This document shows positions 10,367 to 42,505 of a stretch of DNA of 48,515 bases, piece after piece. The DNA is from a virus. Both the position numbers and the translations under genes were made by a program. How positions within the stretch are numbered: position 1 is the first letter of the stretch; every line of letters starts with the position of its first letter. Where the stretch lies: IMG/VR virus record IMGVR_UViG_3300027865_000681, positions 1 through 48,515 of that record; one strand, 5' to 3'. The notes beneath the pieces are model-generated. The model saw nothing but the letters and a program-made list of their open reading frames with translations. It did not search any database and had not been told where the DNA came from.

Positions 10367-11284
10367 ATGCATGTGATCGTACTGGCAGCGGGAATGGGGA
10401 CGCGACTGGGGGACCTCGGCGAGGTGACGCCAAAGCCGCTTCTCCCCCTGGGCAAGGGCTGCGTCCTGGACCAGGTCGTAACCTCGGTCTGGGTTGAGGG
10501 GATCACCACCGTGAAGGTGGTCCACAACAACCACCGCAGCCGTGCGACCGGTGACTGGCCGAAGAAGTTCAAGAAGTGGCTGGCCGGCGTCAGCTACACC
10601 GCCGACCCGGGCAAGCGGCGCGAGTCCCCCTACATCCGGACCCTCAACAACGGGATCTCCGACCCGTCGGAGCGGCGCGGCGCCGTCGGCGACCTCGCCT
10701 GGGCTATCCGTCAGGGCAACCGACGGGACCTGCCCATCCTGGTCGTCTGTGGTGACGACCTCTTCCCGGATCCGCACCTGGAGGACCTGAAGGGCTTCGA
10801 CGGCAAGACGAGCGCCATCTCCGTGCGCTCGACGAACGACCTGGACCCGATGGTTCTGGCGGCGAATCCCTCCCAGGTCCGCGTTGACGCCGGCAACGTC
10901 GCCGAGATTGGCCCGGATGTCCCGGACACCCCGTGGCGGTACTGCGGCGCGTTCTACGTCGCTGGGGCGGACGTGGAGTTCGTCCTGGAGTACGCGGACA
11001 CCTGGAAGACGGCGGGCGTCGTCGCTGACGACATCGGCGGGCTCATCGACTCGATGGTCAACGACGGCCGCGCCGTCCGCGCCGTAAAGACTGCGACGCC
11101 CTTCTGGAGCGTCGGGACGAAGGAGCTTTACGAGGAGATTCGCCGCCGCAACATGCCGAAGGTCCGGACGCAGGGGCCGCGCGGTGGCAAGAGTACGCTC
11201 CTCAACCAGATGTCCAAGTCCCTGACCGCTGCGGACGTGCAGCGTCTCCGGGGGGTGGCTCGTGGCGAGAAGGTGAACAAATGA
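10367..11284 (+). CDS. Sugar-phosphate nucleotidyltransferase
   Basis: 305 residues from ATG 10367, preceded by GAGGAG. LAAGMGTRL (6-14) and KPLLPLG (23-29) are the nucleotide-binding signature of sugar-1-phosphate nucleotidyltransferases, and Asp130/Asp131 in VVCGDD are placed as metal ligands. The enzyme would activate a sugar-1-phosphate to an NDP-sugar in the cytoplasm. Substrate cannot be read from sequence; with the heptose-kinase-like gene at 19094 it could make an NDP-heptose, but glucose or mannose is equally possible. It is the first gene of the cassette and overlaps the next by ATGA. Confidence 0.85.
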   Translation: MHVIVLAAGMGTRLGDLGEVTPKPLLPLGKGCVLDQVVTSVWVEGITTVKVVHNNHRSRATGDWPKKFKKWLAGVSYTADPGKRRESPYIRTLNNGISDPSERRGAVGDLAWAIRQGNRRDLPILVVCGDDLFPDPHLEDLKGFDGKTSAISVRSTNDLDPMVLAANPSQVRVDAGNVAEIGPDVPDTPWRYCGAFYVAGADVEFVLEYADTWKTAGVVADDIGGLIDSMVNDGRAVRAVKTATPFWSVGTKELYEEIRRRNMPKVRTQGPRGGKSTLLNQMSKSLTAADVQRLRGVARGEKVNK

Positions 11285-11958
11285 GGGCTACCGAAGACAG
11301 AAGGGGGGTTTTTGGTGAACAATCGCGCGGATTCACGCACGGAGCGGTCACTACCGGAGACTGGGAAGCGCTCTGCCGAACGATGCACGACGCCCACGTC
11401 CGTTTCGGTGATCTACCCCGGCCCGGACTCGCTGTGGAGGTCGGAACCCTTGGAGGACGAACCACCCTCGGAATCTGTCAGCTCCTCAACGCGCTGAAGT
11501 GGGATGTCCCCGACGTCCTGACTATCGACACGGACGGGAGCTGTCTCGGGAAGGCCCACGATCTGTGCCGTGGGAAGCCGAACGCCCTGCGGACGTTCCA
11601 CGGTCGATCGACTGACTGGAAGCCCGTGGAGCCTATCTGGTGGGCTTTCATCGACGGCTGCCACTGCCACGACTGCGTCCTGGCGGACCTCTGGCACCTG
11701 TCGCCGCACGTTCCCGAGGGCGGCATCATCTGTCTTCACGACGCGGGAGATCAGCACGTCCGTGGTATGCTGGTCCACGAGAGGTACCACGGACGCGATG
11801 GCGTGGAGCGCCTCTACGGTGTAACCACGGCGATCGAGGAGTTTTTGGACCAGGTCGACAGCTCTTGGGAGCGTGTCGAGCACGTACCGGCACAGGTTCG
11901 CCCGAGGGGCGCGCCGACGCCGCTCTTCGGTGGACTTCAGGCTTTCAAGAGGAGGTGA
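11281..11958 (+). CDS. Class I SAM methyltransferase (Methyltransf_24-like)
   Basis: 225 residues. Rossmann-fold motifs are visible: VEVGTLGG (52-59) for SAM binding, TIDTD (81-85) as the acidic residue after beta2, FIDGCHCHDC (123-132) and a late LHDAG (152-156) that fits the metal-binding pattern of TylF/Methyltransf_24 enzymes. These often O-methylate sugars or small molecules. The Cys-His-Cys-His-Asp-Cys cluster recurs in the methyltransferases at 16923 and 18321. The start overlaps the nucleotidyltransferase stop. Confidence 0.82.
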   Translation: MRATEDRRGVFGEQSRGFTHGAVTTGDWEALCRTMHDAHVRFGDLPRPGLAVEVGTLGGRTTLGICQLLNALKWDVPDVLTIDTDGSCLGKAHDLCRGKPNALRTFHGRSTDWKPVEPIWWAFIDGCHCHDCVLADLWHLSPHVPEGGIICLHDAGDQHVRGMLVHERYHGRDGVERLYGVTTAIEEFLDQVDSSWERVEHVPAQVRPRGAPTPLFGGLQAFKRR

Positions 11959-11964
11959 CGAGAG

Positions 11965-12621
11965 ATGGGAAGCAAAGCGAACGACGACATCAACGAACGC
12001 AGACGGAAGAAGATCCGCGAGCAATCGGGCATCACGGAGGAGGGCGCGGAGCCGCCAGTCTCTGAACTCGGAGTCTACGGGCAGGGGTACATCGACACGG
12101 TCATCCCGACGAAGGACTTCCAGCCCGTCCACAATTACAAGCCGCCGATGTGGGACATCATCAAGGAGCACTTCGGCGACAAGGAGCCCGGCATCGCTGT
12201 CGAGGTCGGATCCCGTCGCGGCCACTGGGCGCAGGGCCTCATGGCCAACACGAAGAAGACGCATCTCTTCTGCGTCGACCCGTGGGCTGGCCGCCAGGGC
12301 CGGCAGAACTTCGCCGTCTGGCTGAAGCGCTGCCCGGAGATCTTCACGCGCTGCCACCCGATGATCGGAACGTCGATGGACTGGTCGCGCTTCTTCCCGT
12401 ATCAGGTCGACCTGCTCTTCATCGACGGGCTGCACGACGCCAAGAGCGTGACGCTGGACCTGACCCGGTGGGCTCCTCGGATGAATCCGGGCGGCCTCAT
12501 CATCGGCCACGACTACAACCAGGCCGACGTGAAGGTCGCGGTAGACGAGTTCTTCCCCGAGCTGACCGGTACGCAGAAGCTGGGACCACAGCACGCGGTC
12601 TCCTTCTGGAAGGCTGTGTGA
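11965..12621 (+). CDS. Class I SAM methyltransferase (Methyltransf_24-like)
   Basis: 218 residues. A charged N-terminal extension (1-60) precedes the catalytic fold: VEVGSRRGHW (79-88), FCVDPW (102-107), LLFIDGLHDAKS (150-161), GGLIIGHDY (176-184). The DPW and GHD motifs link it to the methyltransferases at 20118, 20780 and 34190 as one paralogous group. An O-methyltransferase acting on a glycan or its precursor is likely. GAGGTGACGAGAG precedes the ATG. The stop overlaps the following GTG start. Confidence 0.82.
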   Translation: MGSKANDDINERRRKKIREQSGITEEGAEPPVSELGVYGQGYIDTVIPTKDFQPVHNYKPPMWDIIKEHFGDKEPGIAVEVGSRRGHWAQGLMANTKKTHLFCVDPWAGRQGRQNFAVWLKRCPEIFTRCHPMIGTSMDWSRFFPYQVDLLFIDGLHDAKSVTLDLTRWAPRMNPGGLIIGHDYNQADVKVAVDEFFPELTGTQKLGPQHAVSFWKAV

Positions 12622-13607
12622 AGCGACCCCTGGTCGTTATTCCCACGCGCCGGACGGCGTTCGTTCGAATGGGCAGACACCTGTTCGTGAACGCCGTCCG
12701 GCAGGTCCTCACCTCGATCGGTTACGACGTCCGAGTGGTCCCAGACGTTGAAGTAAACATTCGAGCCCTGGGGTACGACGACCTCCTCTTTTTCGTCGAC
12801 CACACCACAGCGGTAACGGTTTTGTCGAAGGGGAGGCCGAGGAAGCCGACGATCCTTTACTTCAACACGGAGCCCGTGAAGGCGCTGGAGTGCTACCCGG
12901 AGAAGTACCGCCGACGCATTGGTCGGTACCAGCTCGGGGTCACCGCGCTCGCCCCTGATCTCATCTTCGATTACAACCTCCCCACGTCTCGGTTCTGGAA
13001 GCGCAAAAGTCTGGTCGCCTATCACTGCCCGATGGGCTACCACGACAGCTACACGCTGCCGCCGGGTCCGTCCTTCAGTGCAGCCGTGCACTCTCTCGGC
13101 GAAGAGCTGTTCGACGCGAAGCCTACCCGGCGCCCCCCGGGGCTTCGGGGCAAGGGCCGAGAGTCAAAGCTGCCAGACCTCAAGACGCGGCGAGGCTACA
13201 TCTGCGATTCCCTCCGTGACGCCCGCCTCCCCTGCCGGTCGTACGCATTCCGCGAAGACTGGCCCAGCGTCGAGAAGCTGAACCGCTCCCCAGGTGTCCA
13301 CCTCAATGTCAACCAGGTGCTGCCGCCGTTCACGTTCGGGCCTTTGCGCGTGATCTCCTTCTGTCTGGCGAACTCCCGCTTCGTCCTGTCGGAGCCGTGC
13401 AACTGGTACCCCAAGGGATTGCGGGCCGGCTACCACTGGGACGTCGCGCCTCCGGAAGAGTTCATCGATCGGGTGTGCTACTGGTGGGCGAGGCCGAAGG
13501 AGCGCGACGAGATTGGTCGCGCCGGATTCGAGTTCATCCGGAACCATCACAGGCTGGATGTCCATCTCCCTGAGACTCTGGCGAAAGCGGGGCTGTTCTA
13601 TGGCTAA
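12618..13607 (+). CDS. GT-B-like glycosyltransferase (paralogue 1)
   Basis: 329 residues starting at GTG 12618 (GTGA overlap, GGAAGG upstream). The C-terminal third (GPLRVISFCLANSRFVLSEP, then a Y-H-W-D-V-A-P-P-E-E-F block and EIGRAGFEFIRNHHRLD) resembles the donor-binding end of CgeB/Glyco_trans_1_2 type enzymes. The N-terminal half has a GYDVRVVP strand and an FDYN motif. It is clearly paralogous to the next gene along its full length, so the pair arose by tandem duplication. The acceptor is unknown; it probably adds a sugar to a surface or virion glycan. Confidence 0.72.
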   Translation: MKRPLVVIPTRRTAFVRMGRHLFVNAVRQVLTSIGYDVRVVPDVEVNIRALGYDDLLFFVDHTTAVTVLSKGRPRKPTILYFNTEPVKALECYPEKYRRRIGRYQLGVTALAPDLIFDYNLPTSRFWKRKSLVAYHCPMGYHDSYTLPPGPSFSAAVHSLGEELFDAKPTRRPPGLRGKGRESKLPDLKTRRGYICDSLRDARLPCRSYAFREDWPSVEKLNRSPGVHLNVNQVLPPFTFGPLRVISFCLANSRFVLSEPCNWYPKGLRAGYHWDVAPPEEFIDRVCYWWARPKERDEIGRAGFEFIRNHHRLDVHLPETLAKAGLFYG

Positions 13608-14562
13608 AGGAAAGGTCCGCGTTTTCTTCCCGATGCGGAAGCACATGAAATACTACGGCAAGCACCTCTTCGTGATCGCCGTGAGGGAGATCATGGAGGG
13701 CTGGGGTTTCGATGCTCGCATCGTTCCTTCGGAGCGCTACAAGGAGTGGCCAATCCGCAAGGGCGACATCGTCTTCTACGCTGACGCCGGCTCGACGCGG
13801 ACCAGTCCTCCCTGGGCGAAGAGCCGGGGGGCGTGGACCTACTACTTCAACATGGAGCCGGCGGATCCCCTGCCGCACTACCCGGAGCCGAACAGACACC
13901 GGGTGGCCTCCTACGCCAAGCGAGTCTTGCGGGCGAACTTCGACGTGGTCTTCGACTACAACGGCAACACGACCGAGAATCTGCGGAGCCTCGGAGTCAA
14001 CGCCTACCTTCTGCCCATCGGCTACCACGAGAGCTTCGAGCGCCCCAGGCTGAAACCCTACCGCGCGGGGGTGCACTTCCTCGGGAACGAGATGGAGCCG
14101 GAGTTCAAGAACACGAAGCCTGGGAAGGAGCGAAACCTGAAGTCCCGGCGAGGCAAGATGTGCGACGAGATCCGTAAGCTCGGCACCCCCTGCCACTCGC
14201 ACAGCTTCAGGGTTCGGACGCAGGAGGAGTTCGATCGCTTCCTCTGGACTCCTGGCGTGCACCTGAACCTCCACCGGTTCCCTCCGCCGTTCCAGTTTGG
14301 TGGCCTACGGGTGATCGCGATGCTGATGTCCAACCAGCGTTTCGTCCTGACGGAGATCTGCAACTGGTTGCCCCCGGGTTTGGTTCCCGGTGTACACTGG
14401 GACGTCGCCCCTCCCGACGAGTTCGCGGAGCGGGCCGCATACTGGTACTCGAAGCCGAGGGCCTGCAAGAAGATGGGCCGAGCTGGCTACGAGTTTCTGA
14501 AGAAGAGCCATCGGCTGGATGTTGAACTGGAGAGAGCGATGACGGAGGCGGGGATTCTGTAG
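13600..14562 (+). CDS. GT-B-like glycosyltransferase (paralogue 2)
   Basis: 320 residues from ATG 13600, overlapping the previous gene by 8 bases. It shares with its upstream neighbour the order GKHLFVIAVRE, YYFNMEPADPLPHYPE, VVFDYN, PIGYHESF, GVHLNLHRFPPPFQFGGLRV and HWDVAPPDEF. The conserved Glu and the Gly-Leu-Arg-Val region fit a nucleotide-sugar binding C-terminal domain. It is the last gene before a structured intergenic break. A weak ribosome site suggests translation coupled to the upstream gene. Confidence 0.72.
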   Translation: MAKGKVRVFFPMRKHMKYYGKHLFVIAVREIMEGWGFDARIVPSERYKEWPIRKGDIVFYADAGSTRTSPPWAKSRGAWTYYFNMEPADPLPHYPEPNRHRVASYAKRVLRANFDVVFDYNGNTTENLRSLGVNAYLLPIGYHESFERPRLKPYRAGVHFLGNEMEPEFKNTKPGKERNLKSRRGKMCDEIRKLGTPCHSHSFRVRTQEEFDRFLWTPGVHLNLHRFPPPFQFGGLRVIAMLMSNQRFVLTEICNWLPPGLVPGVHWDVAPPDEFAERAAYWYSKPRACKKMGRAGYEFLKKSHRLDVELERAMTEAGIL

Positions 14563-14572
14563 CGATAAAAGA

Positions 14573-14751: not shown

Positions 14752-15141
14752 ATGGCCAGAGTGATTTGTTTCGACATCGACGGGTTTCTGACGGTAGACA
14801 CCAGCACCAAGCACAACGACCTCACCGGCAGTTACATCTACCGGGAGCCTCGCCCACGGGCGCGAGAGGCAATGCTGAGAGCCTACGAGTCGGGGTGGTA
14901 CGTGCTTCTCTTCACCGGCCGAAGGGAGGCGCAGAGGAGAATCACCGAGGACTGGCTCCACGCGAACGGCTTTCACTACCACGCCCTGGAGATGGGCAAG
15001 CCGTACTTCACCTACATCATGGATGATCGGATCCTCGGAGCTTCGGTCGACGAACAGTTGGAAGCATTCGAGAAGATTCTCGATGGTACAGAAGGAGAAC
15101 CCGCAGGCGGAGATTCTGCACCGGGTGCAAGCGACGGTTGA
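14752..15141 (+). CDS. HAD-like phosphatase
   Basis: 129 residues. HAD motif I is FDIDG (7-11, nucleophile Asp8 and acid/base Asp10), motif II TGR (55-57), a Lys at 83 and motif III DDR (91-93). There is no large cap domain, and the length matches compact polynucleotide-kinase-3'-phosphatase-like or sugar-phosphate phosphatases. In this cassette it may remove a phosphate during NDP-sugar synthesis (a GmhB-like role), but a nucleic-acid role cannot be excluded. The Pro/Gly/Ala C-terminal tail overlaps the next gene by 59 bases. Confidence 0.75.
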   Translation: MARVICFDIDGFLTVDTSTKHNDLTGSYIYREPRPRAREAMLRAYESGWYVLLFTGRREAQRRITEDWLHANGFHYHALEMGKPYFTYIMDDRILGASVDEQLEAFEKILDGTEGEPAGGDSAPGASDG

Positions 15142-15697: not shown

Positions 15698-16565
15698 GCT
15701 GCTCAAAGAGTCGGTCAGACCCAAGAGGCCACCAGAGTCAGTTCTGGTGAAGGGGGCCAGGGGGAACGTCCACATGCGCCGTCGTGTCAGTCACTTCTGG
15801 GGACACTACGAGGGGCAAGATGCGTTCGTCTGTGGAACAGGGACGAGTCTGTCCGGATTCGACTGGACGAAGCTAAACGGAAAACTTACGATAGGGCTCA
15901 ACGACGCGCTCAAGGTTCCCGGGTTTGCGCCAGCATTTTCTATCTTCAGCGATATCGGAATTTGGTCCAGATATCGTGACCTGACGCTCGACGACCGCAC
16001 GGTGGTCGTCTGCCAGGGCCGGTCGCGCGACCAGTTTGTGAAGTACGAAAGATGCTCGTTCAAGGATCAGGTTTGGCATTTCAACCAGCAGGCCACCGCG
16101 AAGGCCTGCAAGCCCGGCAACGACGATCTGTTCTGTGCCAGGACAATCGCCTGCACCGGGATAATGATGGCCTGGAAACTTGGCGCGCGGCGGGTCTTCC
16201 TCCTGGGAGTCGACGGCTACAAGCTCGCAGGCGGAAACGGCGGGACCTACTACCACGACGGCTCGGGCAAGGGTCCAGAGCGTCGCAAAGAGAAAGGCGT
16301 TCCCGGAACAACGATGGTCACGCAGGACCGTCACACTTGGTGGAACGACAACATGAAAGAGCTGCGCGAGTGGTTCACCGCGCAGAAAGTGTACATGGAC
16401 CCCTTCGTTCGCCGCGAAGGGAAGCTCGTCTACGGCTCGAACGTCTTCAACCTGTCGCCGCTCTCGACGATCACTGAGTGGCAGAAGGTCAAGGTGAAGA
16501 CGGTCCTGGGAGGAGGCTGCTTCGATGAAAAGAACAAAGGCATCCGGCACGCCGTCGTTTCTTGA
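15618..16565 (+). CDS. DUF115/Maf-like protein, copy 1
   Basis: 315 residues. After a basic N-terminus (1-50) the conserved start of the fold is FVCGTGTSLSGFD (70-82), then LNDALKV with Asn95 and FSDIG with Asp112; LGARRVFLLGVDGYKLAGG forms the second half. The G-x-G-x-S-L, Asn and Asp order is shared by six proteins in this window. It resembles the MptE-like/MAF_flag10 (DUF115) core of flagellin nonulosonate transferases and GT42-type sialyltransferases. A glycosyltransferase role is therefore plausible. The match is by pattern only. Confidence 0.62.
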   Translation: MPLRRESSKEQRKREKDARLAVAQKRRLLKESVRPKRPPESVLVKGARGNVHMRRRVSHFWGHYEGQDAFVCGTGTSLSGFDWTKLNGKLTIGLNDALKVPGFAPAFSIFSDIGIWSRYRDLTLDDRTVVVCQGRSRDQFVKYERCSFKDQVWHFNQQATAKACKPGNDDLFCARTIACTGIMMAWKLGARRVFLLGVDGYKLAGGNGGTYYHDGSGKGPERRKEKGVPGTTMVTQDRHTWWNDNMKELREWFTAQKVYMDPFVRREGKLVYGSNVFNLSPLSTITEWQKVKVKTVLGGGCFDEKNKGIRHAVVS

Positions 16566-16926: not shown

Positions 16927-17549
16927 ACTTGAAGCTGTCTGTCGACGAGGTCCTCGGCAAAGTCAAGAAGCCACAGTGCCACGAGCGGGAGTTCGGGGTC
17001 TTCGTCCGCTCGATTCTCAGCACCCTCCAGAGCGGCGTGCCCGGCGCGATGGTCGAGATCGGATCGAACAAGGGGAAGAGCCTCGCCTGCCTTCTCCAGG
17101 TGATGCAGCTCGCCGAGGACATCCGGCAGGTCTTCAGTGTCGACCCCTACGGCAACGCGGAGAAGTACGTCCCCCACCGCATCGAGAAGTTCTCGGGCGA
17201 CATCCCCGTTGAGCACATCCGCCTGCCGTCGCAGGACCCCAAGGCGCTGGAGCGGGTGAACATGCCCATCGCCTGGCTCTTCATCGACGGCTGCCACTGC
17301 TTCGATTGCACCTGGGTCGATATCGACTCCTGGGTTCCCAAGGTCATCCATTCGGGCACGGTCGTCTTTCACGACTTCTGCCCTCGCACGAACTACCGCA
17401 AGCGCGACTACTGCGCGGCGGCGGATGCCAAGCGCCGGTGGGGCGTCTGGCCTGCGTTTCAAATTGCCAAGGCCGCTCGCGAGCTGGAGAAGGTGGAACA
17501 GAGTGTCCGCCATACTCCCGGGATGGCCGTTTTTAGAAAGGTCACCTAA
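16923..17549 (+). CDS. Class I SAM methyltransferase (Methyltransf_24-like)
   Basis: 208 residues from a TTG start. VEIGSNKG (44-51), FSVDPY (71-76), LFIDGCHCFDC (119-129) and VVFHDFC (147-153) give the full set of SAM and metal motifs. The Cys-His-Cys signature puts it closest to the enzymes at 11281 and 18321. It probably O-methylates a sugar or glycan. It overlaps the next start by one base (TAATG). Confidence 0.82.
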   Translation: MNLKLSVDEVLGKVKKPQCHEREFGVFVRSILSTLQSGVPGAMVEIGSNKGKSLACLLQVMQLAEDIRQVFSVDPYGNAEKYVPHRIEKFSGDIPVEHIRLPSQDPKALERVNMPIAWLFIDGCHCFDCTWVDIDSWVPKVIHSGTVVFHDFCPRTNYRKRDYCAAADAKRRWGVWPAFQIAKAARELEKVEQSVRHTPGMAVFRKVT

Positions 17550-18628
17550 TGGTCGCAGTAGCCCGGTTCGCTGGTGCAGTGTTGACGGGGATCCAGAACC
17601 TCAAGGGAAAGCACAAGGGTGCTCGTGTCGTCATCTGTGGCTCCGGGACGACGCTGAAGGATTTGGACCTCGCGAAGATTCCGGAACACTGGGTGGTCAT
17701 CGCCGTCAACGAGGCCATCCGAAAGCTCGGCTCGCGTGCTGACTACTGGGTCCTCTCCGACGAGCCCATCGTTCGAGGCTACGCGCAGCACTGCCCCAAG
17801 GACGTTGTCGTCCTGGCAATGCACAACGCGACGGTGACGATCCCGAAGGCCCTCCCCGACAACGAGTGCTACACCGTCAACTCGATCAACAAGGTTTGCA
17901 CCCCGGATGACGGCTTCAACTTCTTCAGCCGAGGGACGGTGCTCATCGGCGCGGTCGAGATGATGCGCTACGCCGGGGCGACCCGGTTCTACTGCTTCGG
18001 ACTCGACTGCTACCGGACGGAGAAGGTGTACTACTACGACGATCGCAAGCCGCCGATGGTCACCGAGCAGCAGTGCCGTCCCGAGGAGATGGGGCGTGGC
18101 CTTCCGCCGGGCGTCCGCATCTACGTCACCTCGCGTCTCAAGAACATGGTCCGCAAGCTCTCCGAGCTGAAGCGTGGCGGCCTGTGGAACGACGTGGAGA
18201 TCCACTGCGTGAATTCCCCGTACTCGCAGCAGGATGTCGTTCCGAAGCTCTCGATGGAGGATTTCGAGGAGCACGTCAAGCGGGACGTCGAGAGTCAGAA
18301 GAGAAAAGACAGGAGGAAGCGTGCCAAACAGAAAGGCGTTCAGACCGGACAGGAGACTACCGAAGCCGAGGGAGCCGGAGAAGCTGGTGGACCTGGGGAC
18401 GAAGGGGGGTCAGCTCACGAAGACGGACCGCCTGACGCTCCTGTGGTCGATCGAGGCGGCGATGGAGGCGGCGGAGATTCCGATAGATCCGAAGGCGGAC
18501 ACTCCGCTGATGGAGACGCTGAGGCCTCCGACGTTCGTGGAGATCGGGACGCACATGGCGGGGACGTCCCTGATGGTGATGGCGGCGCTGGAGAAGCTGA
18601 ATCGCCCGGCGACGTTTCGGACGATTGA
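17549..18628 (+). CDS. DUF115/Maf-like protein, copy 2, with unusual tail
   Basis: 359 residues. VVICGSGTTLKDLD (27-40), Asn54 in VNEAIRK and Asp71 in VLSDEP mark the DUF115-like core; GATRFYCFGLDCYRTEKVYYYDD forms the second conserved block. The recognisable protein ends near residue 257 in a Lys/Arg-rich helix. The remaining about 100 residues are Gly/Asp/Glu low complexity and lie entirely inside the next gene, read in another frame. The tail may be a by-product of a lost stop codon or a frameshift near 18320, or a genuine disordered extension. A glycosyltransferase-type role is inferred. Confidence 0.6.
   Translation: MVAVARFAGAVLTGIQNLKGKHKGARVVICGSGTTLKDLDLAKIPEHWVVIAVNEAIRKLGSRADYWVLSDEPIVRGYAQHCPKDVVVLAMHNATVTIPKALPDNECYTVNSINKVCTPDDGFNFFSRGTVLIGAVEMMRYAGATRFYCFGLDCYRTEKVYYYDDRKPPMVTEQQCRPEEMGRGLPPGVRIYVTSRLKNMVRKLSELKRGGLWNDVEIHCVNSPYSQQDVVPKLSMEDFEEHVKRDVESQKRKDRRKRAKQKGVQTGQETTEAEGAGEAGGPGDEGGSAHEDGPPDAPVVDRGGDGGGGDSDRSEGGHSADGDAEASDVRGDRDAHGGDVPDGDGGAGEAESPGDVSDD
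18311..18323 (+). promoter_or_regulatory. Consensus AGGAGG placing a GTG start
   Basis: AGGAGG (18311-18316) lies 4 bases before GTG 18321. This makes 18321 the best start for the methyltransferase even though it lies 308 bases before the end of the upstream reading frame. Confidence 0.75.
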
Positions 18629-34193: not shown

Positions 34194-34870
34194 GGGACGT
34201 CCTTTATGCGTGTTGCCCCATGCACTCCACCATCCTCGGTGGCAAGGTGGGAGGGAAGTGTTCCTATTACGGGAGCACTCTCTTTCTGTCTGATAGCTTT
34301 GGTGCACCGCTGAAGGTTGACCCTTTCGACTTCTCCAGGCTGCCGGCGTACCGCGACCCGATGTTCGAGATGAACCCAGGCGCCCGAGTCTTCGTGGAGC
34401 TGGGCACGCAACGAGGCTTCACCGCGCACCGGGCGGTCATCCATCTGCCGAAGGCGACCGTCCACTGCGTCGACCCTTGGTTCAACTTCGCCGGCAAGCC
34501 GGAGTACGTCGGCGACATGGACCTCTGCCATGCTGTCTTTCAAGAGCTTCACAAGGAGAACCTCGCCAGCGGACGAGTGATCGCGCACAAGGGATTCTCC
34601 TGGGACATCGCCGAGACGTTCGACGAGCCCATCGACTTCCTGTGGATCGACGGCGACCACACCTACGACGGTCTCATGAAGGACCTGGAGCTTTGGGTTC
34701 CGAAGGTCGTCCCTGGCGGGCTGATCGTGGGTGACAACCACGAGATGCCGGAGGTCGCTGGAGCCCTGAAGACGTGGGCGGAGAAGCACGGGTACACGTA
34801 CGAGGTGGGAGGCGCTTTGAAGAAGGCGCGTGGTAGACGCAAGCAATTCTGGTTTAAGAAGAAGGGATAG
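34190..34870 (+). CDS. Class I SAM methyltransferase (Methyltransf_24-like)
   Basis: 226 residues. VELGTQRG (69-76), HCVDPW (92-97), LWIDGDHTYDG (151-161), LELWVPKVVPGG (166-177) and VGDNHEM late. The IDGDHTYDG phrase is the classical Methyltransf_24 signature. An N-terminal segment (1-60) with paired Cys8-Cys9 is not explained. Likely a sugar O-methyltransferase. It overlaps the preceding gene by ATGA. Confidence 0.85.
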   Translation: MRDVLYACCPMHSTILGGKVGGKCSYYGSTLFLSDSFGAPLKVDPFDFSRLPAYRDPMFEMNPGARVFVELGTQRGFTAHRAVIHLPKATVHCVDPWFNFAGKPEYVGDMDLCHAVFQELHKENLASGRVIAHKGFSWDIAETFDEPIDFLWIDGDHTYDGLMKDLELWVPKVVPGGLIVGDNHEMPEVAGALKTWAEKHGYTYEVGGALKKARGRRKQFWFKKKG

Positions 34871-34872: not shown

Positions 34873-36615
34873 ATGCCGAAAAGACCGACCAAGCCCCGAG
34901 TTGCCATCTTGACCTCGCTGGTGGATTTCTCCCCAGCGTACAGCCTCGTCGGGATCATCCTCGACCAGGCCCGAGCGCTGAAGCGTGCCGGGTATGAGTA
35001 CGACCTGCTCTGCCTGAAGCACTTCAACAAGAACGATGCCGAGGTCATCGAGCGTGAAGGCCTCAACATCAAGTACATCCTCCCGCAGACTCGCCTCGTC
35101 GATTACCGGGCGAACCAGCCAGCGGAAGAGGACCACGTCGAGAAGAAGACGAAGAACCGCGTCGAGGGGTTCGAGACGCAGGTCGCCGTTCACTTCGAGA
35201 GCAACGAGGAGAAGGGGTGGGTCGGGTACCGCGAAGCCCTGGAGCCCTACGACACCATCATCGACCACGACTTGATGTTCTTGTCGTGGCACCTCCCGCA
35301 GAATGCCGCGCTGCGTCGCTGCATCGACCTGTGGCCGGAGAAGAACTGGCTCCACTGGGTCCACTCCGGGCCGTCGAACCCGCCGCGCGATCTCTGCTAC
35401 CCCTCGGACCTTCGCTTCTCCTGCGCGCCGCACTCGACGTACTGCTACCTCAACCACTCGCAGGCGAGCGAGTACGCGCTGATGATCAACGCCCCGGCGA
35501 ACGTCGTCCGGACGGTCTACAACCCGAAGGACCTGCGCGACGTCTGGGGCTTCTCGAAGCTCTCGGACGACATCATCGATCGCTACAATCTCATGGACCA
35601 TCAGATTCTGGTGGTCTATCCGTTCTCGACTCCGCGCTGGCACGACAAGGGTGTCCGCCAGCTCATGCGGATTTTCGGGAACTGGAAGGAGATGGGCGTC
35701 CGCGCGAAGCTCGTCCTCATCAACGCGCATTGCAACTCGCCCCAGGACCAGGCGGACGTCGATGGCATCGAGGCCTACTGCAAGGTCGCCAAGCTGGAGC
35801 TGGACGAGGATGTCATCCTGACGTCCCGGTACGGCGACGAGATTGGCGAGAAGAAGCTCCGCTACACGGTGCCGTTCCGTACGGTCCGCGAGCTGGTGAT
35901 GCTCTCCAACACGTTCATCTTCCCCTCGGTCTCTGAGTGCTGCTCACTGATTCAGGCCGAGGCCTCGATGGCCGGCAAGTTCATGGTCCTCAATCGGGAC
36001 TTCCGTCCGATGCTGGAGTTCTGCTCCGAGGGCGTGATGACGTACGAGTTCACGCAGAACGACCCGAACTCCAACCCGGAATACTACGAGTGCGTCGCCA
36101 AGGAAATCTGGGCGAACCTCCAGGCTGAGTCCTCAATCATGAATCGCACCGAGGCGATCACTCGGGTCTACAACCGCGATTGGATTTTCAAGAACCAACT
36201 CGAACCGCTGCTCTATCTCCGCTTCAGTCTTCGCAAGGACGTCCCGGCCAAGCCAGCGTCGCGCGAGGTCCTCCGGCCCGAGCTGGTCAGCGACGACGAG
36301 ATGGGGCACAAGACGGAGCCGGCCCCACAGATGGTCATCGAGGGACCTGGCGGACAGACCATCCCCCTCCGGGTGGCGCTGCCGACTGAGACAGTTCCGC
36401 CGGAATCCATCGTCGCCGAGGAGACGCCGCCCGGGCCTGACAGTGAGAAGCCCAACTACGAGGATCCCTGGGACGGCATGGAGTGCTCGGTCTTCGGGAC
36501 GTGCTCCAGCGAGCAGAAGGTCCAGTGCTACGAGCAGGCCGGGCACTGCCTGGTCCTCGACGAGATCGATCACCGCGAGCGAGTGGCAGAGGCCCGTAGC
36601 GGCCAGAAGAAGTGA
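34873..36615 (+). CDS. Large glycosyltransferase with Cys-rich tail
   Basis: 580 residues. A GT-B fold is indicated by the N-terminal VAILTSLVDFSPAYSLVG and AGYEYDLLCL strands, the central VVYPFSTPRWHDKGVRQLM and the donor loop FIFPSVSECCSLIQAEASMAGKF. After about residue 440 a Pro/Glu-rich linker leads to a small C-terminal unit with four spaced Cys (ECSVFGTCSSEQKVQCYEQAGHC), which could bind metal or form disulfides. This tail is unusual for a GT4-like enzyme. It may recognise an acceptor protein. Confidence 0.78.
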   Translation: MPKRPTKPRVAILTSLVDFSPAYSLVGIILDQARALKRAGYEYDLLCLKHFNKNDAEVIEREGLNIKYILPQTRLVDYRANQPAEEDHVEKKTKNRVEGFETQVAVHFESNEEKGWVGYREALEPYDTIIDHDLMFLSWHLPQNAALRRCIDLWPEKNWLHWVHSGPSNPPRDLCYPSDLRFSCAPHSTYCYLNHSQASEYALMINAPANVVRTVYNPKDLRDVWGFSKLSDDIIDRYNLMDHQILVVYPFSTPRWHDKGVRQLMRIFGNWKEMGVRAKLVLINAHCNSPQDQADVDGIEAYCKVAKLELDEDVILTSRYGDEIGEKKLRYTVPFRTVRELVMLSNTFIFPSVSECCSLIQAEASMAGKFMVLNRDFRPMLEFCSEGVMTYEFTQNDPNSNPEYYECVAKEIWANLQAESSIMNRTEAITRVYNRDWIFKNQLEPLLYLRFSLRKDVPAKPASREVLRPELVSDDEMGHKTEPAPQMVIEGPGGQTIPLRVALPTETVPPESIVAEETPPGPDSEKPNYEDPWDGMECSVFGTCSSEQKVQCYEQAGHCLVLDEIDHRERVAEARSGQKK

Positions 36616-36629
36616 AAGAAGAAGAGGCT

Positions 36630-36698: not shown

Positions 36699-37286
36699 AT
36701 GAAGAGAACCGTATTCTTCGACCTTGAGACCGGGGGACTGGAGCCAGGTGTCCACCCCATCATTCAATTCGCAGCGGTGGCCGTCGACGAGAACTTCCAC
36801 ACGCTCGAAGAGCTGGAGCTGAAGCTCCGGTTCGACATCGGCGTGTGCACCGGCGAGGCCCTGGAGGTGAACTCCTTCGACCCTGACGTCTGGGAGAAGC
36901 AGGCCATCGACCCGCGTGCGGCGATGGTTGCGATCACGTCTTTCCTGAAACGCCACAACACGGTGAAGCTCATCAGCAAGCGGGGCAACCCGTACTACGT
37001 GGCGCTCATGGTGGGACACAACGCATCGAACTTCGACGGCCCCTTCCTCCAGAAGTGGTACCGTCAGGCCGACGAGTTCCTCCCTGGGTTCTTCCGGGTG
37101 ATGTGTACTTCGCAGCTCGCGCAGTGGCACTTCTACAACCACCCGGAGCCGCCGAAGGACATGAAGCTCGGGACTCTCTGCGAGCACTTCGGCATCGAGC
37201 TTCCCGAGCACGCGGCGCACGACGCCCTCGCGGACGTCCGGGCGAATGTCCAACTGGCGAAGGTTCTCTTGGAGGCACGAGGCTGA
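36699..37286 (+). CDS. DEDDh 3'-5' exonuclease
   Basis: 195 residues. FFDLETGG (6-13; Asp8, Glu10) is ExoI, GHNASNFDGPFL (106-117; Asp113) ExoII and HDALADVRA (174-182; His174, Asp179) ExoIII, matching RNase T / DNA polymerase III epsilon-type nucleases. It would degrade single-stranded ends or short RNA/DNA. It looks out of place among glycan genes and may be a phage DNA-metabolism gene carried in the same operon. Its stop overlaps the next start (TGATG). Confidence 0.88.
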   Translation: MKRTVFFDLETGGLEPGVHPIIQFAAVAVDENFHTLEELELKLRFDIGVCTGEALEVNSFDPDVWEKQAIDPRAAMVAITSFLKRHNTVKLISKRGNPYYVALMVGHNASNFDGPFLQKWYRQADEFLPGFFRVMCTSQLAQWHFYNHPEPPKDMKLGTLCEHFGIELPEHAAHDALADVRANVQLAKVLLEARG

Positions 37287-37921
37287 TGGGCGGAGAATTC
37301 AGCGAGGTCTATCACCACCGGATGCGGTACTTCCTGACACCGCAGTTCGATATGTACCGGCACATCCGCGAGCGCATCGCGGCCGACACGCCCGGCAATC
37401 TGATCGTAGACGAGGCCCTGGCCGTGCTCGATTACGGGTGCGGGAACGGCGTCGGCTGCATCATGCTCAAGCACGACGGCTGGCAGATCGTCGGCATCGA
37501 TTCTGACGAGGAGGCCATCGCGTTTGCCCGTGACTCGTGGGGGCACCTCGCCGAGTTCAAGCACCAGGACTGGGCCGCCCCTGCCGACGAGGCGAGCGAC
37601 GAGCATCGCTACCGTCGGCAGTACGACATCGTCGTCTCCCTGGAGGTCATCGAGCATGTCGACAACCCGGTGGCTCTGCTCCAAGCTCTCCGCGACTCGT
37701 GCCGGAACGGGGCTCGCGTCTTCGTCTCGACGCTGAACCACAACAGCCAGTACCGCAAGAACCGGGGTCACGTCGGGAAGTTCTGCGTCGAGGACTTCCG
37801 CGTCCTCTGCGCGAAGGTCTTCCCGGGTGTCCGCATCTTCAACTACGACTTCAGCGAGGAGCTGGACGACGAGTCCACCCTGACGCCGATGGTCGCAGTC
37901 TGGAAGGAGGGCGCCGAATGA
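37286..37921 (+). CDS. SAM methyltransferase (Methyltransf_23/UbiG-like)
   Basis: 211 residues from ATG 37286. LDYGCGNGVG (48-57), VGIDSDEEAI (69-78) and VVSLEVIEHVDNP (116-128) are strong UbiG/Methyltransf_23 motifs; VFVSTLNHNSQYRKNRGHVGKF follows as the substrate loop. Substrate unknown. ATGA overlap with the next gene. Confidence 0.83.
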   Translation: MGGEFSEVYHHRMRYFLTPQFDMYRHIRERIAADTPGNLIVDEALAVLDYGCGNGVGCIMLKHDGWQIVGIDSDEEAIAFARDSWGHLAEFKHQDWAAPADEASDEHRYRRQYDIVVSLEVIEHVDNPVALLQALRDSCRNGARVFVSTLNHNSQYRKNRGHVGKFCVEDFRVLCAKVFPGVRIFNYDFSEELDDESTLTPMVAVWKEGAE

Positions 37922-38358: not shown

Positions 38359-38893
38359 CGTGACGAAGCAGTACAACGAAGCCCAATGGAACATGATTCG
38401 GGAACAGTGCCCGAGGCCTCGCGTCGCCGTAGAGCTGGGCAGCTACTGCGGTCTCTGGGCCGGCCAGCTCCTCGAAGAGCACCCCGGCGTGGGCGAGCTG
38501 TACTGCGTCGACCGCTTCAACAACAACCGCACCTGGAAGCTCTGGCGGGCCGCCGTGGCTCCTCACAGGGAGAAGGTCACCGTCCTCCCCGTGGAGCTGG
38601 AGGTGGCCGAGCACATCTGGACGACGACCATCAAGGAGAAGATCGACATCCTCTACGTGGACGCCGATCACCACTTCAAGGCCGTGCTCCACGACCTGAG
38701 CTTCTGGGTTCCCTGGGTCCGGATGGGCGGGCTCATCCTCTGCCACGACTGGCAGATGTCCGGGCCGCGAGGAGCCATCGGGCGCTTCTTCGGGCAGGAG
38801 AACGTCACCATCGAGAAGTTCGGGCCGCGCGCTTTCTGCGAGTCCGCCTGGATCCGCAAGCGGAAGGAGTACCCCCCGTGCGAGTCTCCTTAG
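38345..38893 (+). CDS. Class I SAM methyltransferase (Methyltransf_24-like)
   Basis: 182 residues. VELGSYCG (29-36), YCVDRF (53-58), ILYVDADHHFK (102-112), WVPWVRMGG (121-129) and LCHDWQ (132-137). DADH replaces the usual DGDH, and the C-terminal part is short. It is probably an O-methyltransferase. It overlaps the glycosyltransferase start. Confidence 0.8.
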   Translation: MRFSDVTKQYNEAQWNMIREQCPRPRVAVELGSYCGLWAGQLLEEHPGVGELYCVDRFNNNRTWKLWRAAVAPHREKVTVLPVELEVAEHIWTTTIKEKIDILYVDADHHFKAVLHDLSFWVPWVRMGGLILCHDWQMSGPRGAIGRFFGQENVTIEKFGPRAFCESAWIRKRKEYPPCESP

Positions 38894-39717
38894 TTTGTGT
38901 CACAGGATCCACAGAGCTGAACAGCCGCCTCCGTGCCGAGCTGCTCTGGCGAATGGTGAACAGTGCCCACCTCAATCCGGGGCACCCCTTTGAGCTGATC
39001 CTCGTGGACAACTCCCAGGGCGGAGCGCACCGCAAGGCCATCCGGGACATCTTCGACAGCTACCGGTCCGTGACTCACATCGTCCAGAATCGCATCAACG
39101 AGTTCCACGGTGGCGGCGTGCGCCAGGGGCTTCAGCTCGCCGACGGGGACATGCTGGTTCAGATTACCGACGACCTGGAGCTGAAGCCTGGATGGCTCTC
39201 GGCACTGATTCACCCCTTGCTCATCTACCCGGAGGAGAAGTTCGTCGGCGGGCTCGTGAAGGGTCACAACGTGCGCGCCCCGGTGATACGTCGGTTCGAT
39301 CTGGAGGGCATCAAGTACGTCGTCCGGCCAAAGTGCGCCGCTTACTGCTGGGCCTATTCTCGCAAGACCTACAAGGAGATGGGCGATTGGAGGCGGGCTC
39401 ATTTCGCCGACACTCGTTTCTCCAAGAGGCTCCAGCGTGCCGGCTACGTCTTCACTCTTCCCGAGGAGAGGTACGCCGACGAAACGAACCTCAACTATCT
39501 CCGTCCCTGGGACTACAAGAACGAGCGAGGCATCCACGCGCAGCAGCTCAAGCACCAGCACCTCGACCACGTCTGGCCGACGGGAGTCTGTGCCAGTCTC
39601 TTGCATCCACCGGTCGTCCCGACAACCGAGCACCCGCTGAAGAACCCCGAGGGCATCGGCCCTGGAGCCTACCCCGAGGACTGGCTCGCAGAACAGGAGA
39701 TCGCCGGTGATTCATGA
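38878..39717 (+). CDS. GT2-family glycosyltransferase (GT-A fold)
   Basis: 279 residues from GTG 38878 with AAGGAG (38864-38869). It starts VSLVCVTGSTELNSRL, then ELILVDNSQGG, an ADGDMLVQITDDLELKPGW segment with the Asp-Asp that acts as the DXD-type metal motif, and a Y-C-W-A-Y-S block. Inverting GT2 enzymes transfer a sugar from an NDP donor. Acceptor unknown. Confidence 0.8.
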   Translation: MRVSLVCVTGSTELNSRLRAELLWRMVNSAHLNPGHPFELILVDNSQGGAHRKAIRDIFDSYRSVTHIVQNRINEFHGGGVRQGLQLADGDMLVQITDDLELKPGWLSALIHPLLIYPEEKFVGGLVKGHNVRAPVIRRFDLEGIKYVVRPKCAAYCWAYSRKTYKEMGDWRRAHFADTRFSKRLQRAGYVFTLPEERYADETNLNYLRPWDYKNERGIHAQQLKHQHLDHVWPTGVCASLLHPPVVPTTEHPLKNPEGIGPGAYPEDWLAEQEIAGDS

Positions 39718-40447
39718 GGTTCGGAACATCTACGATCTGGAAGGAACCGAGGAGGGCAGGCGCCTTTGGATTGTCGCCCCCGGTCCGACCTCTCGGGACC
39801 TCGACAAGTGGGGCCACCTCATGGTCGGCGAGACGGTCATCGCGCTGAACAGCGCGATCGAGATCGTCAAGAAGCCGGCCTTCTGGCTCTACGCCGACAA
39901 GCGTTTCTCCTGGCTCTACGGTCACGAGCTGCATGGGACCAAGGCACGGATGAAGCCTGGCGTCGACACGCCGCACCGCGTCATCGTTCCGCACCACCAG
40001 ACGAAGAAGCTCCGGCTCTACTTCGCCGGCCAGGAGGTCTACTCCTTCCACTACCAGATGCCGATCAAGCGCAGGCTGCCGGAGGAGGAGCGCGAGGACA
40101 AGCCGTTCTGGTACGCCCCGGACGACCGCTTCATTCCTGGGCATGCCTCGGTGGCTTCTACGGCTTGCAGCGTCGCCTGTCTCCTGCGGCCTCGTGTCGT
40201 GATTCTCGTCGGCATCGACTTCATGATTCCTGACGGCGTTTACTACCACCCGGACGTCGTGAAGAACAAGGGACCAACAGAGAAAGCGAGGAACCTCGGG
40301 GCCGGCCTAAGCTGGTTCAAGGGCGCGCTGACCAAGAAGGGTGGCATCTGGCCTGGACTCAACATCGTGACGCCGTCGGTCTATCTGGCTTCCCAGGCTC
40401 CCGTGAGGCATCGGAACTGGGAGGAGATCGCACGCGGTGAGGAGTAA
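39707..40447 (+). CDS. DUF115/Maf-like protein, copy 6
   Basis: 246 residues from GTG 39707 (AGGAGA upstream). LWIVAPGPTSRDLD (20-33), Asn48 in ALNSAI and Asp64 in YADKR match the conserved positions, although Thr-Ser replaces Ser-Leu. RVVILVGIDFMIPDGVYYHPD is the second motif. It lies next to a GT2 enzyme and shortly before the GalNAc-transferase-like gene. A glycosyltransferase role is inferred. Confidence 0.6.
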   Translation: MIHEVRNIYDLEGTEEGRRLWIVAPGPTSRDLDKWGHLMVGETVIALNSAIEIVKKPAFWLYADKRFSWLYGHELHGTKARMKPGVDTPHRVIVPHHQTKKLRLYFAGQEVYSFHYQMPIKRRLPEEEREDKPFWYAPDDRFIPGHASVASTACSVACLLRPRVVILVGIDFMIPDGVYYHPDVVKNKGPTEKARNLGAGLSWFKGALTKKGGIWPGLNIVTPSVYLASQAPVRHRNWEEIARGEE

Positions 40448-41150
40448 GATTCCACATTGGGACGGCTGGATGAAGAGCCACTCGAACGACGATGGACCGG
40501 TCGACCCGGACATCGTGGCCATCCAGAAACAGCTCCGCACCGAGTGCCACAAGCGGAAGGGGGTCTACACCCGATGGATCCGCAACGGCGTCCTCGCGGA
40601 CAAGCCGGTCGCGACTTACTCCTTCGGCCCCATCAACCTCCCGGCCCACCCTGAGCTTTTCACCTCCTCGCGCTGGAACGAGCGCCGGACGAACGTGCCT
40701 CTGCCTTACGACGAGGAGACCTGGCGCTTCGTTCATCGCTACTGGAGAGGTGCGAATAGCTACCGAGGGATCAAGGCTCACATCGAGCAGTACGGCATGC
40801 GTCGACCGCTCATCGCTGATATGTTCACGAACTACGACCCGGACGGTGGCCAGCTCGTCCACCGGACCTTTGCCTGGCGAGGAGAGAACCTGGACGCTCC
40901 GTGCCTTATTCTGCGCACCGGCAACGAGCGAATCATGATGGCGATGTTCGAGTGGAACTGGGTGACGGTGCCCATCGTCGTGCTCGTTCGTGACTGTGGG
41001 TTCGACCCGGCGATGTCCGCTGTCTGGAGACTCCTCCAGGAGACCAGCGGCCTCGGCGGGCTGTCCCGAGAAATCAACCGACAGACCGAGGACAGGGGCA
41101 GCTTGGACCTCGGCCTCGAAGCACTCTTTACAGAAGGGATCATCAAGTGA
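40437..41150 (+). CDS. ParB-like domain protein
   Basis: 237 residues from GTG 40437. IKAHIEQYGMRRPLIADMF, then RTGNERIMMAMFEWNWVTVPIVVLVR (about 160-185), resembles the ParB/Srx fold pattern (I-x-x-x-G-x-x-x-P-L, then G-x-x-R-x-x-A-x-x-x-x-G-x-x-x-V-P-V-x-V). The C-terminal third is unassigned. It may be a nucleotide-dependent or nucleic-acid-acting protein; the ParB domain at 1810 is only distantly similar. The GAGGAG site is 10 bases away. Confidence 0.5.
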   Translation: MRSKIPHWDGWMKSHSNDDGPVDPDIVAIQKQLRTECHKRKGVYTRWIRNGVLADKPVATYSFGPINLPAHPELFTSSRWNERRTNVPLPYDEETWRFVHRYWRGANSYRGIKAHIEQYGMRRPLIADMFTNYDPDGGQLVHRTFAWRGENLDAPCLILRTGNERIMMAMFEWNWVTVPIVVLVRDCGFDPAMSAVWRLLQETSGLGGLSREINRQTEDRGSLDLGLEALFTEGIIK

Positions 41151-42505
41151 CAGATTTGAAGGCTGGAGCCGGCCACATCGACATGCTCGTCAAGGACTCG
41201 GGGCAGCGCCCCAAGGTCTCCGTCGTCTTCGGAGTGCGGAACGAGTACCCCGTCATTCTCGGCACGATGTTTTCGTTCATCGACGAGCTGGAGTTCTGGG
41301 GCTACGAGTGGGAGGTGATCGTTGTTGACAATATGTCAACGGACGACACCCGCCACATTCTCCGGGACAAGTTCCGTCGCTGGGTGAAGGCCGGGAAGCT
41401 GAAGATCATCGAGTTCGACGAGCGCGGGGCGAACGTCACCGTCCGGAACATCGGCGCCCGTGCCGCTACCGGGGACGTGGTCTTCCTGGCGGACGGACAC
41501 ATCGCCGTGGCCCCGGGCACCTGTCACGGGATGATTCAGGGCTGGCTGGAGCGGGGCGGCCTCTGGCACTCGGCCATCCACATCTGGGGCGACACCCGCG
41601 ACATCCGGTGCTACGGCTACGACTTGAAGCTGCGCGAGCGCTTCTGGGGGAACCTCTCCCGGGGCGTCCCGAAGGAGGTCGCGGTCAAGCCGGAGGCCCG
41701 CTACTCCTCGCCGCGCGTCCCGTACTACCGGGTGCCGATGGCGAGCCACTGCGCGCTCATGGCTGGGCGCGAGGAATACCTCGACTTCAAGGGATACTGC
41801 GAGGATTTCAAGTGCTACGGCGGCGGCGAGCCCTACCTCGACATGCTCTGGTGGCTGATGGGGAAGGAGGTTTGGATCTTCGGGCAGGGCCTCATGCGTC
41901 ACGCCTTCGGGACGAATCCTCGGTGGGAGAAGCAGGGGAAGGCCGCCGGGATGAAGGACTGGCCGACCCGGGGTTCGAACCAGGTGGGGCCGGCTCTGGA
42001 GCTGCTCTTCACCAACCCTGCGGACAAGGACGTCCGGGGCCTGCTGAAGAAGTGTCCGGAACGCTTGCACCCGCTCATCCGTGGCCTCATGAAGGACGAG
42101 GCCCTGGACACCACGGAGAAGATCGCCGAGGTGGCGAAGCAGATTCCCAAGCGTGTCCGCTCTCACGTCTACCACCGCGACGGCCACACGAGTGCCGACC
42201 TCCACCCGGGCGACGAGTATCTCCGCTACGCTCGCGGCTACGCCTGGACCAACGACCAATTCCAGTTCAATTTCATGCTGTCCGCCTACTGCATCGGCGG
42301 GTACGACTGGCTCACCCAACGCTACGAGGTCTACTACAAAGACCGCAAGGGCAACGAGCGCTACGTCGAGGAGCTTCAGAAGATGCGTCAGGAGGTCCTG
42401 CGCGTCGGCGCGCCGTGGAGGAAATTCATCTCAGAGCGCCAAGTCATGACCCTGGATGAACTTCTGGAAAGGAAACCCTGGTTGAAGTTCGACGATTTGG
42501 TATAG
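41147..42505 (+). CDS. Polypeptide GalNAc-transferase-like glycosyltransferase
   Basis: 452 residues from GTG 41147. KVSVVFGVRNEYP (23-35) and VIVVDNMSTDDT (58-69) give a GT-A nucleotide-sugar site. FLADGHIAV (113-121) contains an Asp-x-His motif (D116-G-H118), the hallmark of mucin-type GT27 enzymes, where ordinary GT2 enzymes have DXD. YGGGEPYLDMLWWLMGKEVW, followed by H-A-F-G, resembles the W-G-G-E-N and H-V-F-R end of that family. A 200-residue C-terminal part is unassigned and is not an obvious ricin-type lectin. It may add the first sugar to Ser/Thr of proteins. Confidence 0.65.
   Translation: MTDLKAGAGHIDMLVKDSGQRPKVSVVFGVRNEYPVILGTMFSFIDELEFWGYEWEVIVVDNMSTDDTRHILRDKFRRWVKAGKLKIIEFDERGANVTVRNIGARAATGDVVFLADGHIAVAPGTCHGMIQGWLERGGLWHSAIHIWGDTRDIRCYGYDLKLRERFWGNLSRGVPKEVAVKPEARYSSPRVPYYRVPMASHCALMAGREEYLDFKGYCEDFKCYGGGEPYLDMLWWLMGKEVWIFGQGLMRHAFGTNPRWEKQGKAAGMKDWPTRGSNQVGPALELLFTNPADKDVRGLLKKCPERLHPLIRGLMKDEALDTTEKIAEVAKQIPKRVRSHVYHRDGHTSADLHPGDEYLRYARGYAWTNDQFQFNFMLSAYCIGGYDWLTQRYEVYYKDRKGNERYVEELQKMRQEVLRVGAPWRKFISERQVMTLDELLERKPWLKFDDLV

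Follow-up and report, generated by a model that had tools for sequence, protein, structure and literature searches.

What does a phage do with some 32 kb of genes for activating, joining and decorating sugars in the midst of its virion genes? The question is raised by a 48,515-nt stretch of viral DNA, IMG/VR record IMGVR_UViG_3300027865_000681 (the whole stretch is called the window here), in which a cassette at 10367-42505 separates terminase, portal and capsid genes from the gene for a fibre-type protein. The answer that we consider probable is that the cassette is a late operon for cytoplasmic O-glycosylation of the phage's own particle, with its Ser/Thr-repeat fibres as the probable target. 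Activity, acceptor, timing, benefit and host are what we infer here from gene content, gene order, conservation and fold resemblance.

Gene content of the cassette

A codon-usage gene call finds 59 plus-strand genes in the window and none on the other strand. ORF (open reading frame) calling finds 44 co-directional ORFs in the cassette, all plus strand, with gene ends that match the coordinates of the original prediction for this DNA; 25 of the 43 adjacent pairs overlap, and gaps reach 189 bp at most. That prediction had described about 44 overlapping sugar-type genes, phage-borne and lying between head genes and fibres with no recognisable tail gene among them, and had proposed profile (hidden Markov model) searches of the proteins. 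The description holds. Searches of Pfam, NCBIfam and the PDB (PHROGs for the head genes) give 34 of the 44 a role in sugar activation, glycosyl transfer, methylation or sulfation, in some cases with weak support, and no tail gene was identified in 10367-42505. There are five sugar-activation enzymes, 13 glycosyltransferases (eight of them better supported), 14 methyltransferases and two sulfotransferases, one clear and one weak. The ten remaining genes comprise a weak HAD phosphatase-like protein, a DnaQ-like exonuclease and eight others. In the lists below, identities given as three figures are to the three complete relatives described later.

The sugar-activation genes, with the phosphatase-like protein, are (CMP, cytidine monophosphate):

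10367..11284 (+), sugar-1-phosphate nucleotidyltransferase (PF00483, E 1e-7; core in all four phages)
14752..15141 (+), HAD phosphatase-like protein, core gene (weak HAD-type matches; 78/74/55% identity)
19166..20128 (+), GHMP sugar kinase, nearest to heptose-7-phosphate kinase HddA (PF00288, E 1e-14)
27399..28118 (+), CMP-nonulosonic (sialic/pseudaminic) acid synthetase (PF02348, above cut-off)
28654..29508 (+), nonulosonic (sialic/pseudaminic) acid synthase NeuB (PF03102, E 3e-48)
32826..33731 (+), NAD-dependent sugar epimerase/dehydratase (PF01370, E 1e-31)

NeuB scores 164.7 bits with PF03102 against a cut-off of 22.1, and also matches TIGR03569 (E 4e-48) and PDB 6NCS (E 8e-20). Its metal-binding His motifs, GYSGHE and IERHFT, are kept; they are invariant in three phages and largely common to 6NCS. 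At 284 aa, it seems to be without the C-terminal SAF domain of longer NeuBs. The CMP-synthetase matches TIGR03584 (PseF; E 2e-21, under its equivalog cut-off), and its nearest solved relatives are the CMP-NeuAc synthetases 1QWJ and 1EYR (E 2e-17). By sequence, then, the pair is a nonulosonic acid synthase and a CMP-nonulosonate synthetase, assigned at the level of class and not of sugar subtype, because no equivalog cut-off is reached (for NeuB, those of TIGR03569 and TIGR03586). The GHMP kinase is heptose-kinase-like (NF049969 at 66.8 bits, under its cut-off; PDB matches 3K85/4N3O). Together with the nucleotidyltransferase and the epimerase it suggests a second nucleotide sugar, by a pathway that is incomplete.

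The glycosyltransferases divide into six sialyltransferase-like (MptE-like) proteins, two of family GT2 and five that are probably of GT-B type (weak):

12669..14562 (+), two GT-B-like glycosyltransferases (PF13524 under cut-off, E 4e-4 and 1e-3)
15747..16565 (+), sialyltransferase-like (MptE/Maf-like) glycosyltransferase (PF01973 weak; profile A1)
17579..18628 (+), sialyltransferase-like (MptE/Maf-like) glycosyltransferase (PF01973, E 3.5e-6; profile A1)
21445..22077 (+), sialyltransferase-like (MptE/Maf-like) glycosyltransferase, with predicted structure (PF01973 above cut-off)
22883..23860 (+), GT-B-type glycosyltransferase, weak (homologous to 26218-27237; profile A5)
24976..25698 (+), sialyltransferase-like glycosyltransferase (PF01973, E 7.5e-8; profile A1)
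26218..27237 (+), GT-B-type glycosyltransferase, weak (homologous to 22883-23860; 80/51/47% identity)
31313..32170 (+), sialyltransferase-like glycosyltransferase (member of alignment A1)
38953..39717 (+), GT2 glycosyltransferase (PF00535)
39707..40447 (+), sialyltransferase-like glycosyltransferase (PF01973, E 0.01; profile A1)
41183..42505 (+), GT2 glycosyltransferase, core gene (PF00535, E 1e-15; 84/57/74% identity)

The gathering score of PF01973 is passed by 21445-22077 alone (37.8 against 34.6 bits), the other MptE-like proteins scoring 16-33 bits or not at all. The name of the family implies a pterin enzyme. This candidate was rejected, as profile and fold matches in the PDB point to sialyltransferases instead. 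A profile (A1) built from six proteins with mostly weak PF01973 matches or clear mutual similarity finds the sialyltransferase CstII in the PDB at E 7.6e-7, with the Maf structure 5MU5 weaker (E 0.006). An AlphaFold2 model of 21445-22077 reached a predicted local distance difference test score (pLDDT) of 83 and a predicted template modelling (TM) score of 0.85. Its first ten PDB matches in Foldseek are all bacterial sialyltransferases, CstII and relatives, followed by human ST8SiaIII; the best has E 9e-5, probability 1.00 and a TM score of ~0.5. In profile and predicted fold, the six MptE-like proteins thus resemble sialyltransferases, as distant homologues. The second profile, A5, matches the PglA-type, undecaprenol-linked glycosyltransferase 8DVW (E 0.004).

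The remaining cassette genes listed here are mostly methyl- and sulfotransferases (SAM, S-adenosylmethionine; PAPS, 3'-phosphoadenosine-5'-phosphosulfate). Eight of the 14 methyltransferases belong to PF13578, and one, at 24269-24976, is assigned by weak similarity alone:

11434..11958 (+), O-methyltransferase-like (PF13578)
11965..12621 (+), O-methyltransferase-like (PF13578, E 2e-18)
16929..17549 (+), methyltransferase (PF13578)
18579..19097 (+), methyltransferase (PF13578)
20118..21448 (+), two methyltransferases (PF13578)
22077..22886 (+), PAPS-type sulfotransferase (PF00685, E 2e-14; PDB cytosolic sulfotransferases, E 1.5e-10)
24269..24976 (+), probable SAM methyltransferase (no Pfam match; weak similarity between its G003 ortholog and 32167-32829, E 4e-4)
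25652..26221 (+), SAM methyltransferase (PF08241, E 3e-10)
28115..28666 (+), SAM methyltransferase (profile search)
29505..30158 (+), sulfotransferase-like, weak (PF00685, E 0.02; P-loop-like HPRSGTS motif)
30567..31316 (+), SAM methyltransferase (profile search)
32167..32829 (+), SAM methyltransferase (profile search)
34190..34870 (+), methyltransferase (PF13578)
34873..36615 (+), large conserved 580-aa protein (GT4-like motif by eye; 80/58/57% identity)
36699..37286 (+), DnaQ-like exonuclease, not obviously glycan-related (PF00929, E 2e-12)
37286..37921 (+), SAM methyltransferase (PF13489, E 5e-20)
38360..38893 (+), methyltransferase (PF13578)
40470..41150 (+), conserved core protein (69/51/43% identity in all three relatives)

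The 580-aa protein has no family or PDB match and no tblastn match in phages, and its AlphaFold2 model is of low confidence (pLDDT 45.6). The exonuclease is 76% identical in the relative G003 and has no reciprocal match in the other two relatives.

Conservation in related phages

Does the cassette belong to the phage? Capsid and portal proteins led to three relatives: G003 (IMG/VR 3300022218_000001; 108,753 bp, guanine-plus-cytosine (GC) content 53%), G004 (IMG/VR 3300017963_000018; 90,025 bp, GC 49%) and a phage contig of 93,293 bp (GC 55%) at 1947937-2041229 of the Latescibacterota metagenome-assembled genome (MAG) CP070677.1. Their ends overlap, by repeats of 108 bp in G004 and 141 bp in the MAG phage and by 18 nt in G003, where the overlap joins a fibre gene in frame. 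The MAG phage might be taken for a Latescibacterota prophage. However, its contig is flanked on both sides by 100-N gaps and carries the end repeat, and it looks like a circular phage contig that was binned and scaffolded rather than a proven prophage.

In all three relatives, which were assembled independently, the cassette lies directly 3' of the capsid gene. It spans 23-32 kb across the four phages, and in the lineage's complete genomes glycan chemistry takes up about a quarter of the sequence. The comparison of gene order that the original prediction had proposed gives 37 reciprocal best matches in G003, all 37 collinear, 31 in G004 (29 collinear) and 28 in the MAG phage (22 collinear); 25 of the 44 cassette genes have such matches in all three. 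The cassette follows its genome and is not a fresh import, because GC differs between the genomes (63% in the window against 53, 49 and 55%). NeuB also seems to have been inherited together with the capsid gene, since, the window aside, its five best IMG/VR matches fall on contigs with the related capsid gene as well. Shorter cassettes of the same families follow the capsid gene in distant relatives (e.g., loci L044-L049 and L051; capsid 44-57% identical).

The enzymes have been maintained by selection. When the window is compared with G003, protein identity in the cassette is 66%, whereas at fourfold-degenerate sites identity is only 31%, against the 25% expected for unrelated sequences with the base frequencies of the compared genomes. 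For the head genes the values are 77% and 44%. As proteins are this similar although fourfold sites are near random, these comparisons place the cassette enzymes under purifying selection while synonymous sites are saturated.

The genes that flank the cassette in the window are:

1969..3123 (+), DNA methyltransferase with ParB-like domain (phrog_498, E 1e-73)
3941..5329 (+), terminase large subunit (phrog_2, E 2e-36)
5354..7069 (+), portal protein (phrog_145, E 3e-49)
7154..7999 (+), scaffold protein (placed by order between portal and capsid genes and by a relative in all three related phages)
8057..9001 (+), major capsid protein (phrog_283, E 3e-59; 93/71/68% identity)
44122..48513 (+), fibre-type protein with Ser/Thr-rich repeats, cut by the contig end (394 repeat residues, up to 75% Ser/Thr)

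Why, then, are there head genes and no tail genes? In G004 the cassette is followed by a minor head protein, the major tail protein and the tape measure. Judged by this order, the morphogenesis genes are split by the cassette, and the window, being a fragment, stops short of the tail genes, which in relatives follow the cassette. The window ends inside the tandem-repeat fibre gene, likely an assembly break.

Some further observations concern these loci. Directly after the capsid gene, 9504-10112 encodes a small protein whose N-terminus is signal-like and which contains a Pro-Ala tract; it has no family match. G003 carries a second, smaller cluster of glycosyltransferase-like and MptE-like genes at ~40.0-45.0 kb on the minus strand, apart from the main cassette. 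A tblastn search of phages with NeuB gave only two matches, LR756508 and MH319754, around which other relatives of cassette genes are few. In IMG/VR, NeuB relatives occur in at least 524 confirmed stretches, and phage-encoded nonulosonic acid synthesis may be common and wider than described. Many of the 80 stretches fetched from these have a CMP-synthetase relative near NeuB.

Probable virion glycosylation and its alternatives

How might such a set of enzymes work? NeuB and its CMP-activating partner would supply an activated nonulosonic acid of sialic or pseudaminic type, while the kinase, nucleotidyltransferase and epimerase would be parts of a second nucleotide-sugar route. In line with the head and tail genes, the phage also encodes about 13 glycosyltransferases, among them the six with a sialyltransferase-like fold, together with 14 methyltransferases and a sulfotransferase or two. 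The transferases may build short O-glycans directly on Ser and Thr of virion proteins before assembly, as happens to flagellin in some bacteria, and methyl and sulfate groups may cap them. The chief acceptors would be the long fibre repeats, and the outcome a mucin-like, acidic fibre coat that would serve in adhesion or spacing, or protect against proteases and binding proteins.

The fibres are candidates because of the company they keep. Repeat residues in stretches of at least 60% Ser/Thr number 394, 1506, 2077 and 1947 in the fibres of the four cassette phages, with peaks of ~75%. The units differ (STTRSSSV, STTRSTSK, SSTASSSY and STTRSTSQ types), composition is alike, and all six Ser and four Thr codons are used. 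Long repeat fibres of this kind were found at none of 131 comparison loci, most of them short: 75 NeuB loci of other phages and 56 capsid relatives without a cassette. Such repeats are also absent from two relatives that have two cassette-family genes each (G005 and G012) and from the partial contig G021, with seven; the partial contig G011, with ten, breaks off inside a Ser/Thr-rich stretch. This co-occurrence of fibre and cassette in one clade supports the repeats as putative glycan acceptors. Globular domains sit between the fibre repeats: in G004 (42565-48981) a calcineurin-like phosphoesterase (PF00149, E 2e-6), and at 47002-48501 of the window a region with weak phytase/esterase-like similarity.

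Several points weigh against glycosylation of the particle. The column aligned with the catalytic His of CstII, His188, is not His in the sialyltransferase-like proteins and is not conserved; with the TM score of ~0.5, this is why they are named sialyltransferase-like and not GT42. Several transferase assignments are weak. The precursor steps of NeuB were not found in the cassette, so hexosamine supply would need a host source. The correlation of fibre and cassette concerns one clade and may reflect shared ancestry, and the comparison loci, mostly just 4-21 kb, could miss fibres. Ser/Thr-rich linkers can also occur without glycans. Finally, the membrane screen used below is a simple hydropathy count.

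What if the enzymes act on the host and not on the particle? Remodelling of lipopolysaccharide (LPS), capsule or S-layer glycans, which would block superinfection or alter recognition, is the main rival, and we think it unlikely. Similar kinds of gene near pelagimyophage fibre genes have been given this interpretation (PMC7029224). Surface glycan loci typically carry NeuB, a CMP-synthetase and sialyltransferases, and the phage enzymes could feed lipid-linked pathways of the host without a flippase of their own. However, no protein of the window shows more than one predicted hydrophobic segment, hence no multi-pass membrane protein was detected in its cassette, and no flippase, polymerase, transporter or initiating lipid glycosyltransferase is among the families found there; no export route is therefore indicated. 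Moreover, the genes lie within the morphogenesis operon and are hence expected to be late, and neither G003 nor G004, the two relatives tested, has an integrase, so there is no sign of lysogenic conversion. The hydropathy and integrase results fit a cytoplasmic product used during assembly.

Modification of phage DNA bases against host nucleases is very improbable. Some phages do put glycosyltransferases to work on hydroxymethylated bases, and the window has a DNA methyltransferase. However, no thymidylate synthase/hydroxymethylase homologue (PF00303) occurs in G003, G004 or G005, where positive controls were detected; Tet/JBP (PF12851) gave no match, but its control profiles were silent as well. 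To our knowledge, NeuB/CMP-sialate genes, a sulfotransferase and 14 methyltransferases in a head-tail operon are atypical of hypermodified-DNA systems. A diffusible or lipid-linked glycoside, made in place of a protein glycan, is conceivable but equally improbable and unsupported: TylF/CmcI-like methyltransferases of PF13578 and matches to Teg12/Teg14-like sulfotransferases are also known from natural-product tailoring, but no polyketide, peptide or terpene scaffold enzyme is among the families found and the cassette is inside the virion operon in all four phages. The idea that assembly joined a host capsule locus to a phage contig can be dismissed, for although the window alone is a linear fragment, the junction (9.1-10.4 kb, where the original prediction had feared a chimeric join) and the gene order recur in three independent assemblies of different GC, two further contigs 99.8-100% identical to the window span its head region, and no host capsule locus was found, the only NeuB in the MAG being the phage's own.

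If glycosylation of the particle is correct, phages are able to make elaborate acidic glycoproteins with no export machinery, and this would bear on adsorption, particle stability and evasion of binding proteins. A bolder version, which we put forward tentatively and hold to be somewhat doubtful, is that phages of this lineage themselves produce mucin-like glycoprotein fibres that are sialylated (with nonulosonic acid), methylated and sulfated, with repeats and enzymes co-evolving in a near-autonomous system of giant-virus scale. Enzymes and candidate acceptor in one genome form a testable pair, and the cassette is a possible source of soluble sialyltransferase-like, methyl- and sulfotransferases.

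Relation to known systems

The original prediction knew of no precedent, but precedents in kind exist in phage Corndog (PMC4351075), pelagimyophages (PMC7029224) and giant viruses (PMC10117803). In the openly accessible literature, we found no phage precedent for this number of genes, for nonulosonic acid with sialyltransferase-like enzymes or for sulfation, no phage genome described with a sialic acid synthase plus a sulfotransferase, and no O-glycosylated tail fibres. Glycosylation of phage virions is already known; here it would be roughly tenfold larger, with what by sequence is sialic-acid-like and sulfate chemistry.

In Corndog, three glycosyltransferase genes and one for an O-methyltransferase lie between the portal and protease genes, and capsid modification has been proposed for them (PMC4351075). 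Like Corndog and its cluster O, the present lineage consists of tailed phages, without integrase in the two members tested, that carry glycosyl- and methyltransferase genes within the virion structural operon, and these are conserved there in relatives. It differs in having 34 such genes and not four, in their site after the capsid gene and in nonulosonic acid synthesis, sialyltransferase-like and sulfation genes, which are not mentioned for Corndog. Later work reportedly detected glycans on capsid subunits and tail-tube subunits of mycobacteriophages (Freeman et al. 2023, cited through PMC12619734), acceptors that differ from the Ser/Thr-repeat fibres proposed here.

Closest in scale are the Megavirinae, with glycan gene clusters of 6-33 genes (PMC10117803). 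They and the chloroviruses (PMC5408694) encode nucleotide-sugar pathways, glycosyltransferases and methyltransferase, and their glycans sit on fibrils or the major capsid protein, made in the cytoplasm in chloroviruses. These are, however, eukaryotic viruses with unrelated virions, likened here by description. Cytoplasmic O-glycosylation of flagellin by Maf or FlmG, with pseudaminic or legionaminic acid (PMC7591256), likewise combines NeuB, a CMP-synthetase and a cytoplasmic protein glycosyltransferase, but its acceptor is flagellin, its tailoring enzymes are far fewer, and the phage MptE-like proteins are short and match CstII better than Maf.

Capsule and LPS loci of Wzx/Wzy or ABC type have a polytopic flippase, polymerase or transporter, none of which appeared in the cassette in Pfam and hydropathy screens. 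Pelagimyophages, also an uncultured aquatic group, have many glycosyltransferases near their fibre genes (PMC7029224). Theirs lie in a hypervariable region of T4-like phages and are GT8-rich and of LPS type, whereas here gene order is conserved, and sialyltransferase-like proteins, methyltransferases and sulfation make up the content. Lastly, the cultured acidobacterial Tunturiibacter phage Tunturi_4, whose portal is distantly related, carries a GT2 gene (1567-2565) between terminase and portal.

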